A stretch of 64,000 nucleotides of DNA from Chloracidobacterium thermophilum B (GTDB lineage: Bacteria; Acidobacteriota; Blastocatellia; Chloracidobacteriales; Chloracidobacteriaceae). The stretch lies in NCBI RefSeq assembly GCF_000226295.1, contig NC_016024.1:2091501-2155500 (forward strand). The letters run 5' to 3'. The notes below the pieces were generated by a model that was not told the DNA's origin, did not search any database, and saw nothing but the letters and a program-made list of their open reading frames with translations. A program made the translations under genes and the position numbers. Each line of letters begins with the position of its first letter. Position 1 is the stretch's first letter. This document shows positions 15,906-21,364 of the stretch, one piece after another.

Positions 15906-16820
15906 ATGGCGAACCAATACGTACCACAGGCTTGTTCCGTACCGCTCGCAACGTCGCGGGCCGACTTCTGGCGTGCTGTTCTCGAACTGATGAAACCGCT
16001 CACCTGGTTTGCCCCGATGTGGGCGTTCCTGTGCGGAGCCATCAGCAGTGGGGCCGCGCCGACGGGTGAGTTCCTGTGGAACCTGTTTCTGGGAGCCATT
16101 CTGGCCGGGCCGCTGATGTGTTCGATGTCACAGGTCATGAATGACTACTGTGACCGGGAAGTGGACCGCATCAACGAGCCGCAGCGGCCGTTTCCTTCCG
16201 GGCGGATTACAGAAGCCCAGGGGCTTTGGCTGTGTACGGCGCTGACGCTCGCCTCTTTCGGAATGGCCTGGATTGTTGGCGCCTGGCCGGTACTGCTCAT
16301 CACCGTTGCGGCTTTTGTGATGTCGTTGCTCTACAGCGCGCCGCCGGTACGCGGCAAACGCAATGGCTGGTTCGGCAACGGGCTGGTGAGTTTTGCCTAC
16401 GAAGGCGTGGCGTGGGCGACGGGCTGCCTGGCGGTTTCCGGGGCCTTTCCGCCAGCGAGCCTTGCCGGGGCGGTGCTCTACAGCATTGGCGCGCACGGGA
16501 TCATGACGCTCAACGACTTCAAGAGTGTGCCGGGCGACACGGCGCTGGGGATTCGTTCCGTGCCGGTGCAGCTTGGCATTCCACGCGCCGCGCGGGTGGC
16601 CTGCTATGTCATGAACATTCCGCAACTGCTGTGTGTGGGCCTGCTGGCGTGGTACGGGGAATGGCTGTGGGCGGCCGTCCTGATGGGGCTGCTCGTGGCC
16701 CAGATACCCCTTCAGGTCAAGCTCGTCCGGGACCCGGAGGCACGCGCCCCCTGGTACAACGCCACCGGGACGACGCTGTATGTGCTGGGCATGATGGCTT
16801 ATGCCATTGCGATTCGCTGA
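15906..16820 (+). CDS. bchG: Bacteriochlorophyll/chlorophyll synthase (UbiA family), probably BchG
   Basis: This membrane prenyltransferase of 304 residues attaches the phytyl/geranylgeranyl tail to (bacterio)chlorophyllide, the last step of pigment synthesis. The first Asp-rich Mg-prenyl diphosphate motif is NDYCDREVDRINEPQRPFPSG; the second region is GAHGIMTLNDFKSVPGDTALGIRSVPV; the end is PWYNATGTTLYVLGMMAYAIAIR. The GAHGIMTLNDFK form and the C-terminus resemble BchG of purple bacteria more than cyanobacterial ChlG, so bchG is favoured. In a multi-pigment phototroph, bchK (BChl c) or chlG (Chl a) remain alternatives that sequence comparison could decide. About eight membrane segments are visible. 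No strong ribosome binding site precedes the ATG. The arsA-like gene and csmA follow on the same strand. Confidence 0.85.
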   Translation: MANQYVPQACSVPLATSRADFWRAVLELMKPLTWFAPMWAFLCGAISSGAAPTGEFLWNLFLGAILAGPLMCSMSQVMNDYCDREVDRINEPQRPFPSGRITEAQGLWLCTALTLASFGMAWIVGAWPVLLITVAAFVMSLLYSAPPVRGKRNGWFGNGLVSFAYEGVAWATGCLAVSGAFPPASLAGAVLYSIGAHGIMTLNDFKSVPGDTALGIRSVPVQLGIPRAARVACYVMNIPQLLCVGLLAWYGEWLWAAVLMGLLVAQIPLQVKLVRDPEARAPWYNATGTTLYVLGMMAYAIAIR

Positions 16821-16895
16821 GCGGCCCGGTCGCCGTAGATGCCCCCTGAACACGCGCTTGGGCGCAGACTTGCACGAGACGAGAAGACGGAACGT

Positions 16896-18083
16896 ATGAG
16901 AATCATCATCTACACCGGCAAGGGCGGAGTTGGAAAAACCAGTGTTGCGGCAGCAACGGCACTGCTGGCGGCCGAGCGCGGCCTGCGTACGCTGGTGATG
17001 AGCACAGACCCGGCCCACAGCCTTTCGGATTCCTTCGACCTTCCGCTTGGCCCCGAACCGGTACGGATTGCCGACCGGCTCGATGCCCTGGAAACCAACG
17101 TCTATCGGGACCTGGAAGAAAACTGGGGCGTGGTGCGCGCCCACTTTGCCGAAATCCTCGCCAGCCAGGGGGTGGATGGAGTTCTGGCAGACGAGTCCGC
17201 CATCCTGCCCGGCATGGAAGAACTGTTCAGCCTGACGCGCATTCGGAAGTACCGGGAAAGTGGCGAGTACGACCTGCTCGTGGTGGATGCCGCGCCCACG
17301 GGAGAAACCCTGCGCCTGCTTTCGATGCCGCAAACCTTGAACTGGCTCATCCGGCTGGTGCGCGGACTGGAAGCCTCGCTTGTACGTCCCATTGTGCGCC
17401 CCCTGGCGAATGCCACACCCGGACTGCGGAAGTACATGGCGTCAGAGAAGGTCTTTTCCGAAGTTGATCGCATGTTCCGCAACCTCGAAGTCATGCACGA
17501 CATTCTGTGTGACGGCACGACAACGACGGTGCGCCTGGTGATGAACGCCGAAAAGATGGCCATCAAGGAGTCCAAGCGGGCACTGACTTACCTGAATCTC
17601 TACGGACTGCTTTCGGATGGCATCGTGGTCAACCGGCTTTTGCCGGTTCACGAAAACAGTGGTTTTCTGGAAGGATGGAAGGACGTTCAGCAGCGTTACC
17701 TGGCGGAGATTGAGGACTCATTTCAGCCGTTGCCAATTCTGCGGGCACCGATGTACGGTTCAGAAGTCGTCGGTATAGACCGCCTGCGGGTGCTGGCCCG
17801 CGATCTCTTTGGCGACACTGACCCGGCAGCGCGGCTCTACGACGAGCGTCCCTTTGAAATGTGCAAATCCGAGCATGACTGCCGCATTCGCATCCGGCTG
17901 CCGTTTCTGGAGCCAGACCGGCTCGAAACCTGGATTGCGGGCGATGAACTCGTCATCCAGATTGGCAACCAGCGGCGGATGGTTGGTTTGCCGACCTCGA
18001 TGATTGGGCTGGAACCCAGTCATGCCGAGTATCAGAATGAATGGTTGAGTATTTGCTTTGAAACCCCGGTCGGGGTTGGCTGA
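16896..18083 (+). CDS. ArsA/Get3-family ATPase with C-terminal ArsA-HSP20 domain
   Basis: This is a single-domain ArsA-type ATPase of 395 residues. It starts with the P-loop MRIIIYTGKGGVGKTSVAAAT, then has MSTDPAHSLSDSF (A-loop), VVDAAPTGETLRLLSMP (switch II) and a large helical central region. The last 80 residues (LPFLEPDRLETWIAGDELVIQIG...RRMVGLP) match the alpha-crystallin-like ArsA-HSP20 domain seen in ArsA homologues of phototrophs such as Chloroflexi and cyanobacteria. It lacks the second ATPase half of arsenite pumps, and no arsB or arsR is near. Position between bchG and csmA suggests a role in pigment-protein or chlorosome assembly, possibly membrane-protein targeting as for Get3. 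An in-frame ATG at 16839 would add 19 unconserved residues. Confidence 0.88.
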   Translation: MRIIIYTGKGGVGKTSVAAATALLAAERGLRTLVMSTDPAHSLSDSFDLPLGPEPVRIADRLDALETNVYRDLEENWGVVRAHFAEILASQGVDGVLADESAILPGMEELFSLTRIRKYRESGEYDLLVVDAAPTGETLRLLSMPQTLNWLIRLVRGLEASLVRPIVRPLANATPGLRKYMASEKVFSEVDRMFRNLEVMHDILCDGTTTTVRLVMNAEKMAIKESKRALTYLNLYGLLSDGIVVNRLLPVHENSGFLEGWKDVQQRYLAEIEDSFQPLPILRAPMYGSEVVGIDRLRVLARDLFGDTDPAARLYDERPFEMCKSEHDCRIRIRLPFLEPDRLETWIAGDELVIQIGNQRRMVGLPTSMIGLEPSHAEYQNEWLSICFETPVGVG

Positions 18084-18096
18084 AACCCGACCGGGG
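18064..18096 (+). terminator. GC-rich stem-loop at the end of the ArsA-like gene
   Basis: Arms 18064-18077 and 18083-18096 (CCCCGGTCGGG core) pair with one mismatch around a 5-base loop that contains most of the stop codon. No T-tract follows, so it may be a weak or Rho-type end, or an mRNA processing/stability element upstream of csmA. Confidence 0.4.
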
Positions 18097-18115
18097 CGGC
18101 GGCGTCGCCCTGACG

Positions 18116-18156
18116 TACCTGACAGGTAGCGCGCCCTGCCGGTTGTTGCGTGTCAG
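18116..18156 (+). promoter_or_regulatory. Palindrome and CTGACA/TGTCAG pair upstream of csmA
   Basis: TACCTG-A-CAGGTA (18116-18128) is a perfect palindrome that includes CTGACA at 18119-18124; TGTCAG follows at 18151-18156. The same CTGACA and TGTCAG hexamers flank the repeats before bchG. The pair lies 110-150 bases before csmA. No convincing -10/-35 pair was seen here. Confidence 0.3.
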
Positions 18157-18267
18157 TGTCCAGCGCAAGCAGCCAGGTGCCTGCCAGCATGGCCACGGCG
18201 TGTCCGGTTTACGTCCCCAAAGTTCAGCTCACTTCCTTTCCATCCGAACTTCGGAGGACTTGTTGCT

Positions 18268-18495
18268 ATGGGTCAGTTCAAAAAAGTCGTGGACTCCATC
18301 GTCGAGATCGGCGAGATCAACCTTGAAGGTCACATCAACCTCGTGGGCGACATTTACCGCGCCATTGCCTACAACTTCGACCGCATTCAGGGACGTATGT
18401 TTGACAACCTGTATGACGGCGGCGGGGCACGGCGCAGTATGGGCGCGTCTCCGGCGGGCAAGACCACGGCTTCCCGCTTCACAGCCGAAGGATAG
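18268..18495 (+). CDS. csmA: Chlorosome envelope/baseplate protein CsmA
   Basis: This 75-residue protein resembles the CsmA precursor of green bacteria (79 residues in Chlorobaculum tepidum). CsmA forms the paracrystalline baseplate that binds BChl a and passes energy from BChl c aggregates to the reaction centre. The segment VVDSIVEIGEINLEGHINLVGDI matches the amphipathic helix with the conserved EGH; His22 would be the BChl a ligand. NFDRIQGRMFDNLYDGGG corresponds to the family's second half. The C-terminal tail after about residue 50 is Gly/Ser/Ala-rich; in other species such a tail is removed on maturation. GGAGG (18253-18257) is 10 bases before the ATG. Its neighbours bchG and the unknown downstream gene strengthen the call. 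Confidence 0.92.
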   Translation: MGQFKKVVDSIVEIGEINLEGHINLVGDIYRAIAYNFDRIQGRMFDNLYDGGGARRSMGASPAGKTTASRFTAEG

Positions 18496-18612
18496 TCCAG
18501 GATGGGAAGTTCGGGTTGGGCGCCGGGAGCCACCTGGTGCGCCATCCGGGCTTCCCGTTTCATCCACCCAGTCCATCCACGCCCCATCAAGGCGGTTTGA
18601 GGAGAAACGACG

Positions 18613-19923
18613 ATGGCCAACGTCGCGCTGGAGCTGCCTGTCCCTTACATTGGCAAAAATGTCGAACGGAAACACATCGAGGAGTTTTTCCGCTATCACC
18701 GCGAACCGGATGAAGTGGTCATTGCCCTGTTTGACGGGATCATCTTCGATGGCGACGGCAAGCGGGTTGGCGGGCTGACCCTGCACGACTACGTCATTCT
18801 GACCGACCGGCACTTTGTGCTCTGGGCGCGTGGCTTGCAGTCGGATGTTCTCGACCGCCTGGATTACCGTGGCGTGAACCTGAGCGCCAAACCGGCTGAT
18901 ACCCTGCATGGTGAGTTGGCGCTGGAGTTTACACCGCCGGCTGTTCCCAAGCCCCTGACGGCGCGGGTGGACCTGCTGCCCATTATGGACCTGCCGGCGC
19001 TGGAAGAGTTGTTTGAACTCACCAAAGCGGTGGTGACACGAAGTGCCGGGCAGGCTGGCGGACAGCAGGCTGGCGGACAGGCAGAAACATCCACAGGCCA
19101 GCCGCTATCGTCTTCCCAAAGCAGTGCCGCTTCCCAAAGCAGCGCCGCTGACGCCACAGCAGCTCAGATTGAGCGCATCCGGGCCATTGTCCAGGAATCC
19201 CATGCCAGGCGGGGTACGACGTTCCGGGTCCCGCCACCGACCCCAACGGCGCGGCCTACCCCGCCCGATGCACCATCCGGCAGAGTTCCATCTCCTGATT
19301 CCCCCTTTGGCACCGGACGCCCGGTTTCCAACGCGAGCTATGCCGTTTATCGCGTCGCGCAGGTTGCCAAAGATGCTGTCGGGACACTTCCGACGGAAGT
19401 CGGCAAAACCATCGGGCTGGATGAAACCCTCTCGAAATTGGTGGACCGCATTCCCAAAGTTGAGGACATTGGTCAGATTACAGCTCTGATCGAGGCGCTC
19501 AACAAGCTGCTCATTACGGTGAGCGAAAACCCGGCCGCGCGGGCATTTCTGCTGCAGGCCATTGACCGGATGGTTGAGCAGGGTAGCCCCCTCAAACAGC
19601 TTCTGGCCTTCATTCAGAATGCCGGCAAGCCGGTCGCAAAGCCCGCCGGTCAACCTGTGACGGCGGCTGCGGCCCCGGCTGCCGGAGAAGCGGCTTCAGC
19701 TACAGCAGGCGTGACCAGCGAAACAGTCGGAAAAGCAACTGAGAGGACAACCGGGCCCATACCCGGGCCGCGCCGGACGGCCGTCAAGGTCAGCTTTGCG
19801 ACCGACAAGCCACCCAAGCCGGCCGCAGAAGCGGCTGTCTCTTCACCCCCGCCGCTCTCGATTGCCTATAAACCAAACGTGGCGGCTGAAACCACACCCG
19901 AACTGGCTAACGCCAACTCGTGA
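18613..19923 (+). CDS. Unknown 436-residue protein beside csmA; candidate chlorosome-associated protein
   Basis: I do not recognise the family. Residues 1-140 form a compact alpha/beta domain (FRYHREPDEVVIALFDGIIFDGDGK, then LHDYVILTDRHFVLWARG) that recalls bacterial PH-like domains. Residues about 150-240 are disordered, rich in Gln/Ser/Pro, with short repeats (GQAGGQQAGGQ; SSQSSAASQSSAAD, encoded by a tandem 18-base repeat near 19117-19152). Residues 245-345 are helical (LVDRIPKVEDIGQITALIEALNKLL), and the tail is Ala/Pro-rich. There is no signal peptide. A GAGG lies about 10 bases before the ATG. It sits 117 bases after csmA on the same strand, probably co-transcribed, so a baseplate or envelope role is a reasonable guess. 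PH-like folds could bind lipid head groups of the chlorosome monolayer. Confidence 0.7.
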   Translation: MANVALELPVPYIGKNVERKHIEEFFRYHREPDEVVIALFDGIIFDGDGKRVGGLTLHDYVILTDRHFVLWARGLQSDVLDRLDYRGVNLSAKPADTLHGELALEFTPPAVPKPLTARVDLLPIMDLPALEELFELTKAVVTRSAGQAGGQQAGGQAETSTGQPLSSSQSSAASQSSAADATAAQIERIRAIVQESHARRGTTFRVPPPTPTARPTPPDAPSGRVPSPDSPFGTGRPVSNASYAVYRVAQVAKDAVGTLPTEVGKTIGLDETLSKLVDRIPKVEDIGQITALIEALNKLLITVSENPAARAFLLQAIDRMVEQGSPLKQLLAFIQNAGKPVAKPAGQPVTAAAAPAAGEAASATAGVTSETVGKATERTTGPIPGPRRTAVKVSFATDKPPKPAAEAAVSSPPPLSIAYKPNVAAETTPELANANS

Positions 19924-19987
19924 GCACTTTCTGTGCGGCCCGGATGGAACTCGTCTGAAGGCGGTCAAGAGGCTGCCTCCCGACTGG

Positions 19988-20019
19988 TGACGGATACCAC
20001 TGCCGGATACCATCCGTCA
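19988..20019 (+). promoter_or_regulatory. Dyad TGACGGAT-N16-ATCCGTCA with internal direct repeat, upstream of ispH
   Basis: TGACGGAT (19988-19995) and ATCCGTCA (20012-20019) are perfect inverted copies. Within them GGATACCA is repeated directly at 19992 and 20005 (13-bp period). The dyad lies about 120 bases before the ispH start, in the 214-base gap after the csmA-neighbour gene. It could be a protein-binding site or an RNA hairpin. Confidence 0.35.
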
Positions 20020-20137
20020 GTTTGTCTTGGCGGCCGTGGCGTGCAGCGATTAGATTTCGCTTTACGTCGTGACCGCTGGCGCGATCGCGTCGGTTTTGCC
20101 CCCAAGCCATCCTGCAAGACGAGGGCATTCGGTCAAC

Positions 20138-21364
20138 ATGGCCAGTCAGGTTGCGGTCACGCTTCCCGAAAGCGTTCACACGCGGTCACGTTTATTCGTC
20201 CAGTCCAGCACCCGTCAAACCGTCGCGCACCACTTTGGCAGTGCGATTGTCGAAGCCATCCGTCAGCAGGATTATACCTGCCGGGTTGGCCGCCTCACCC
20301 TCCACCTGGCACGTGAATTTGGCTTCTGCTACGGCGTGGACGATGCCCTTGAGCTGGCTTACGAGGCACGCCGCCGGTTCCACGACCGGAAGATTTATCT
20401 GGCCGGGGAAATCATCCACAACCCGATGGTCAACGGGCAGCTCGCCGCTGTCGGCATCCAACCGCTCGACGGACTGGCCCATCTCACCCCTCAGGATGTG
20501 GTCATCATCCCGGCCTTTGGCTTGCCTACCCCGGAGTTGTCCCGGCTGCGCCAGACGGGCTGCACCCTCATTGACACCACGTGCGGTTCGGTCGTCCACG
20601 TGTGGAAGCGCGTGGAACGCTATGCGCGCGACGGTTTCACTACCGTGATTCACGGGAAATACGACCACGAAGAGACGGCGGCGACCCGCTCGCAGGTGCT
20701 GGCCATACCCGGTGGGCGCTACGTTGTCGTCCGTGACCTGTCGGAAGCAGAGCGTCTGGCCGATGTCATCAGTGGACTGCAACCGGTGGACATGCTGCAC
20801 GACTTCTTCGCCCGGTTCGCCTCGCCCGGCTTTGACCCCCGGCGCGACCTGGAAAAGATCGGTCTGGCCAACCAGACCACCATGCTGGCCAGCGAGTCCC
20901 TGGCGATTGCCGAGCGCTTGCGCGCCGCCATGACAGTGCGGTATGGCGAAGACGAAGTGCCATTCCGTTTCCGGTCCTTCGACACGATTTGCAGCGCCAC
21001 CCAGGTTCGGCAGGATGCTGTGGCGCAGTTGCTGGCTTACGGTCCCGACCTGATGCTCGTTGTCGGCGGCTACAACAGCAGCAACACTGGCCACCTCTGC
21101 GAAATGGCTGCGGCGGTTTGCCCGACCTACCACATTACGGGTGCGGACTGTCTGGTGTCTGCCGAACGCATCCGCCACAAGCCGGCTTTTCAGACCGGTG
21201 AAGTTGAATCCCACCACTGGCTGCCTGCCGGCAAGCTCACCATCGGGCTGACTTCCGGCGCTTCCACGCCCGACCGCATCCTTGGGGAAGTGATCGTGCG
21301 GCTCATTGACGTGGCCGGCGAGTCCCTTCCCCCGGAATGGTCTGTTTCAGGCGCCGGAGCGTAA
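20138..21364 (+). CDS. ispH: 4-hydroxy-3-methylbut-2-enyl diphosphate reductase IspH (long cyanobacterial/plant type)
   Basis: IspH (LytB) is the last enzyme of the MEP pathway, making IPP and DMAPP with a [4Fe-4S] cluster. The 408-residue protein has the first cluster Cys in AREFGFCYGVDDALELAYEAR, then AGEIIHNPMVNGQL, the second Cys in TLIDTTCGSVVHVWKR, and the third Cys in FDTICSATQVRQDAV. SSNTGHLCEMA and GASTPDRILGEVI close the fold. The roughly 70-residue N-terminal extension and overall length match the cyanobacterial/plant form rather than the 310-residue E. coli form. The ATG at 20138 follows GAGGG by 12 bases. Its place after the chlorosome genes fits supply of phytyl and carotenoid precursors. 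It converges with the Fe-S oxidoreductase gene, with only 6 bases between stops. Confidence 0.95.
   Translation: MASQVAVTLPESVHTRSRLFVQSSTRQTVAHHFGSAIVEAIRQQDYTCRVGRLTLHLAREFGFCYGVDDALELAYEARRRFHDRKIYLAGEIIHNPMVNGQLAAVGIQPLDGLAHLTPQDVVIIPAFGLPTPELSRLRQTGCTLIDTTCGSVVHVWKRVERYARDGFTTVIHGKYDHEETAATRSQVLAIPGGRYVVVRDLSEAERLADVISGLQPVDMLHDFFARFASPGFDPRRDLEKIGLANQTTMLASESLAIAERLRAAMTVRYGEDEVPFRFRSFDTICSATQVRQDAVAQLLAYGPDLMLVVGGYNSSNTGHLCEMAAAVCPTYHITGADCLVSAERIRHKPAFQTGEVESHHWLPAGKLTIGLTSGASTPDRILGEVIVRLIDVAGESLPPEWSVSGAGA

Follow-up and report, generated by a model that had tools for sequence, protein, structure and literature searches.

An ArsA-HSP20 ATPase of Get3d architecture is encoded between bchG and csmA in Chloracidobacterium thermophilum, with a paralogue in the reaction-centre gene cluster

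We analysed a stretch of 64,000 nucleotides from Chloracidobacterium thermophilum B (contig NC_016024.1, positions 2,091,501 to 2,155,500), here called the window; the genome has two replicons and 3,695,372 bases. Within it, five genes are adjacent in series and all on the + strand: bchG (15906–16820), encoding a (bacterio)chlorophyll synthase of the UbiA family and of the bacteriochlorophyll a (BChl a) type; arsA1 (16839–18083), encoding the ArsA-HSP20 ATPase that is the subject of this study; csmA (18268–18495), encoding the chlorosome baseplate protein of 75 amino acids; a gene for a protein of 436 amino acids that matches no family (18613–19923); and ispH (20069–21364), encoding 4-hydroxy-3-methylbut-2-enyl diphosphate reductase. 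The initial annotation had named all five genes and their consecutive arrangement, both of which are confirmed here, but it put csmA first, and the actual order is that given above.

ArsA1 has an ArsA-type ATPase domain (PF02374, E = 1.7e-91) followed by the ArsA_HSP20 domain (PF17886, E = 1.7e-16), both above the gathering score. The C-terminal HSP20-like (α-crystallin) domain lies at 17883–18059 on the + strand (60 bits, residues 349–407). The true start of the protein is probably the ATG at 16896, giving 395 amino acids; in the aligned orthologues conservation begins at MRII and runs onward. Judged by its sequence, ArsA1 is of a type already known, the Get3/ArsA ATPase with a C-terminal α-crystallin domain that was published in 2023 as Get3d (PMC10248533) and occurs in plants, cyanobacteria and green bacteria. 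The P-loop (GKGGVGKT), switch I (STDPAHSL) and an A-loop-like motif (PMYGSEVVG) are all intact, so that by its motifs the enzyme is catalytically intact; in switch II a Glu takes the place of the signature His of Get3 and ArsA, and there is no CXXC zinc motif in the sequence. ArsA1 scores 255.6 bits against TIGR00345 (cut-off 135) and its best PDB matches are entries 3zq6 and 3ug6. It falls short of the Nostoc-type equivalog NosAFP (NF050088; 145 bits, cut-off 325) and lies far below the cut-off of the ArsA model TIGR04291 (94 of 650 bits); it consists of a single ATPase unit. The helical region of the client domain is kept and is amphipathic.

The block of bchG, arsA1, csmA and the 436-amino-acid gene is present in all seven Chloracidobacterium genomes examined and in a divergent phototroph, G251, making eight in total, and because it recurs in this way the adjacency of bchG, arsA1 and csmA is not a matter of chance. 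The G251 block lies on a contig of 11.8 kb (L009), on which ArsA1 is 78% identical to the window protein. The best-conserved part is the HSP20 domain (88% identity between the window and L009 proteins, against 79% overall). The flanks of the L009 block are different, with genes named from their sequences as serpin-like and transporter upstream and VWA-like downstream; neither dacB nor ispH was found on this contig. The position of ispH after the 436-amino-acid gene, as first annotated, holds for the window (PRK13371, 458.6 bits, cut-off 440), but ispH is a neighbour and not a member of the conserved block. Within the genus ArsA1 is 93–98% identical, above dacB or ispH in most genomes. The block has persisted while its surroundings changed, and the linkage looks real. 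Spacing and common strand suggest that the block is co-transcribed, and the same applies to the reaction-centre cluster described below. A search of genome contigs with the ATPase returned four Chloracidobacterium-like loci and no others, and searches of plasmid and viral contigs with FMO and the ATPase found no phototroph with these clusters. G251 is filed as Actinomycetota, with its contig labelled 'WN_Acidobacteria'; it contains a phototrophic acidobacterium with csmA, bchG, fmoA, pscA and three ArsA-HSP20 genes, and is probably a mislabelled or mixed bin.

The genome of the window also has three ArsA-HSP20 paralogues, and a second one is linked to photosynthesis genes even more strongly. 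The gene arsA3 (G000:C1:2583125-2584429; L062:9123-10463; − strand) lies between fmoA and pscY/pscX in a reaction-centre cluster with the order pscA, pscB, fmoA, arsA3, pscY, pscX. Here pscA matches PF00223 and fmoA matches PF02327, a two-cluster iron–sulfur protein is taken as PscB on the basis of its sequence, and pscY and pscX encode two c-type cytochromes. This order is kept in 8/8 genomes, the contig of one of them (G250) stopping inside pscY. An apparent overlap of 4 bp between fmoA and arsA3 rests on an improbable TTG start and was not used. The HSP20 domain of ArsA3 is its least conserved part (65%), and this contrast with ArsA1 fits the two proteins having different partners. The third paralogue, arsA2 (G000:C1:1752345-1753499; L061:9346-10566; − strand), encodes a protein that has lost the canonical switch I and switch II (SVNAGHNL and DTPPTAGM) and resembles the degenerate Get3d type; it has no phototrophy neighbours, and its context is not kept in G251, where it stands beside a dnaE-like gene. 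In a tree built from acidobacterial sequences together with one actinomycete, Fusobacterium and archaeal Get3, each of the three paralogues forms a deep clade of its own, fully or almost fully supported; their exact placement is unsure given the long branches. Two anciently distinct copies therefore became tied to photosynthesis.

The genes on either side of arsA1 point to what the ATPase might serve. Three chlorophyll synthases are encoded in the genome, and the window BchG scores highest of the three on TIGR01476 (327 bits, cut-off 212; PF01040), closer to BchG than to ChlG or BchK. The copy on C2 is nearer to ChlG (TIGR02056, 225 versus 182) and the copy at C1:1464808 nearer to BchK (PRK12392, 236 versus 144). 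As the most BchG-like of the three, the pigment enzyme adjoining csmA is probably the BChl a synthase. CsmA is the BChl a-binding baseplate protein; the window sequence belongs to its family (PF02043, 33.7 bits, cut-off 25) and is 89–100% identical across the eight genomes. It is amphipathic and is predicted to have no transmembrane segment and not to be tail-anchored. The ∼70 bases 5′ of csmA (18200–18267, + strand) are conserved in 8/8 genomes, with 84% mean column identity, and occur once in each of the seven genomes of the genus. The predicted consensus hairpin pairs with the Shine–Dalgarno sequence and shows no covariation; translational control of csmA is possible. A second hairpin, between csmA and the 436-amino-acid gene (18504–18556, + strand; consensus fold from seven genomes), has seven pairs with pairing-preserving changes on both sides and may stabilize or process the csmA mRNA. 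Neither element matched Rfam. Together they could allow the output of csmA to lie far above that of its enzyme neighbours from one shared transcript. The 436-amino-acid protein has a conserved N-terminal α/β domain, proline/alanine-rich linkers and a helical C-terminal part. Its gene is single copy in the genome and stands beside csmA in eight genomes, with the proteins 56–86% identical; there was no match in Pfam or NCBIfam, no credible family even at an E value of 10, and no homologue among plasmids. The AlphaFold model from five sequences was poor, with a predicted local distance difference test (pLDDT) score of 39. The protein is a candidate chlorosome envelope protein.

We favour, as the most economical one and with a probability of roughly 45%, the reading that ArsA1 is an ATPase of Get3d architecture that was recruited as a dedicated assembly factor of the photosynthetic apparatus, and ArsA3 likewise. 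With ATP bound, the ArsA1 homodimer would keep a hydrophobic or amphipathic product of its own operon as client in the helical client-binding chamber, and the HSP20 domain would shut or regulate this chamber. On ATP hydrolysis the client would be set free at the membrane, the site at which BChl a and the baseplate are put together. CsmA, either apo or loaded with BChl a, would be the most likely client of ArsA1, with the adjacent 436-amino-acid protein as the second candidate; ArsA3 would play the equivalent role for the complex of PscA, PscB, FMO and the cytochromes. Recruitment is supported by the retention of the arsA1 block in eight genomes despite the different flanks in G251, by the presence of arsA3 in the reaction-centre cluster of the same eight genomes, and by the depth of the three paralogue clades, which are not recent copies; ArsA2, with its degenerate switches, has neither phototrophy neighbours nor a stable context. 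Within the same class, full-length homologues occur in 3/3 phototrophs versus 0/23 other genomes, a pattern that is suggestive only, because it represents one evolutionary event. The absence of ArsB and the retained client-domain region point the same way, as do the published properties of Get3d: the plant and cyanobacterial proteins are active ATPases that bind a transmembrane client and contain a closed hydrophobic chamber, with reaction-centre proteins proposed as clients (PMC10248533).

Several results weigh against this reading. Gene linkage is unable to name a client, and the structure model of ArsA1 from five sequences was too poor (pLDDT 44) for an inspection of the chamber. No tail-anchored protein, i.e. 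one with a single C-terminal transmembrane segment, is encoded in either cluster: PscA has a C-terminal transmembrane segment but is polytopic, and FMO, like CsmA, is predicted to have none. Classical tail-anchored targeting is thus not the obvious job of these ATPases. The linkage comparison covers one phototrophic lineage, namely the seven Chloracidobacterium genomes and G251. Finally, 24 of 244 other sampled Acidobacteriota have homologues that reach the HSP20 domain (30–44% identity), and their neighbours include acetate kinase, lipid inositol genes, HypF, glycosyltransferases and MMPL proteins.

This last result speaks for a general membrane-protein targeting or stress chaperone that handles hydrophobic proteins of any kind, with the position in a photosynthesis cluster doing nothing but tying the amount of ATPase to phototrophic growth. 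The family is indeed widespread in non-phototrophs, with varied neighbours. Both domains were present in all 12 of the non-phototroph proteins checked (ten acidobacterial, one from Nonomuraea and one from Fusobacterium). In the Acidobacteriota sample chlorophyll synthase scored above the cut-off in three Chloracidobacterium genomes only and in none of the 24 homologue carriers; FMO was likewise not found in these 24 genomes, while the same model detected it in 4/4 Chloracidobacterium-like genomes elsewhere. None of the neighbours of 14 non-phototroph homologues matches bchG, csmA, the 436-amino-acid gene or ispH. The occurrence of Get3d-type proteins is not tied to photosynthesis. Homologues without an association with phototrophy genes, which the initial annotation had singled out as evidence against its proposal of a role in chlorosome assembly, do exist for the family as a whole but not for the ArsA1 paralogue. 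Its interpretation is partly supported, and arsA3 extends it: the link that it drew between the ATPase and the baseplate gene is stable and not arsenic-related, but the ArsA-HSP20 family is not supported as a mark of organisms with chlorosomes. A general chaperone does not readily account for two diverged paralogues, each separately conserved in its own photosynthesis cluster, nor for the HSP20 domain being most conserved in one (88%) and least in the other (65%), which indicates specialization; we regard it as rather unlikely. In several non-phototrophic families of Acidobacteriota the ArsA-HSP20 gene is near inositol-1-phosphate synthase (L069:11135-12908, L070:9170-11017, L077:569-2470 and L074:3016-4125), and in three of these loci a CDP-alcohol phosphatidyltransferase gene is also nearby; these neighbours suggest a link with membrane lipids.

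It is quite improbable that the block arrived as a unit with the phototrophy genes and persists with no functional need. All of the genomes examined belong to one lineage, and intact operons endure by descent among close species, but in G251 dacB and ispH are gone from beside the block, as are the ArsA2 neighbours, while both blocks remain, and in most genomes of the genus ArsA1 is better conserved than dacB or ispH.

A further, bolder alternative is that ArsA1 and ArsA3 carry BChl a from the membrane-bound BchG to CsmA and FMO, the two BChl a proteins that have to be supplied with pigment made in the membrane, or hold the apoprotein during insertion of the pigment, so that the chamber holds pigment and not peptide. 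The position of arsA1 between a BChl a-type synthase and csmA, and of arsA3 directly after fmoA, would suit such a role, as would the lack of a transmembrane segment in CsmA and FMO, and density in the chamber of Arabidopsis Get3d was fitted as a phospholipid (PMC10248533). Homologues are nevertheless plentiful where chlorophyll synthase is absent, and arsA3 also adjoins pscA, pscB and the cytochromes. To our knowledge, chlorophyll binding has never been shown for any member of the family, and we consider pigment loading distinctly improbable.

That ArsA1 energizes an arsenite or oxyanion pump in an accidental neighbourhood is very unlikely and was rejected: the Pfam name and an ACR3 arsenite transporter on the other replicon speak for it, but ACR3 is unlinked to arsA1 and can function without ArsA, the absence of arsenic genes near the ATPase that was first annotated extends for ArsB (PF02040) to the whole genome (no match, with positive control searches), the protein is a single unit below the ArsA cut-off, and the switch II His is a Glu.

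Get3d was linked to photosynthesis in 2023 by its distribution and structure (PMC10248533). The presence of two paralogues in two photosynthesis clusters, a double linkage that appears to be unreported in the literature searched, offers concrete candidates (CsmA and BChl a for one; PscA, FMO and the cytochromes for the other) and makes the question of Get3d clients directly testable; at the same time the published view is sharpened, as ArsA-HSP20 proteins also occur outside phototrophs. Our results suggest that a poorly understood Get3-like family helps to assemble photosynthetic machinery. The stronger generalization, that the Get3d ATPases of phototrophs are operon-specific chaperones, with ArsA1 serving CsmA and BChl a and ArsA3 serving FMO and the reaction centre, possibly carrying BChl a, is one that we hold to be doubtful; if true, it would give a first function to a family of ATPases that has been retained all the way from green bacteria to chloroplasts.

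Compared with known systems, ArsA1 differs from the ATPase of the arsenite pump, which has a homologous domain but is tandem where ArsA1 is single, and which works with the ArsB that is missing here. Archaeal and eukaryotic Get3 (TRC40) belong to the same core ATPase fold family; ArsA1 differs in having the HSP20 domain, in missing the CXXC motif and the switch II His, and in having no tail-anchored gene nearby. The genes and order of the reaction-centre cluster match the Chloracidobacterium pscAB-fmo and pscX/pscY operons as far as these are described in the available text of PMC10968294, which places pscX/pscY immediately downstream of pscAB-fmo and mentions no ATPase gene between them. In architecture ArsA1 corresponds to Get3d from Arabidopsis (At1g26090) and Nostoc (All4481), which share with it the order of PF02374 and PF17886, the single unit, the Walker A Lys and the lack of CXXC (PMC10248533). 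The intact switch I and A-loop-like motif are as given there for the Get3d of green sulfur and green non-sulfur bacteria; unlike the Nostoc and Arabidopsis proteins, ArsA1 has more intact catalytic motifs and is encoded within a photosynthesis cluster.

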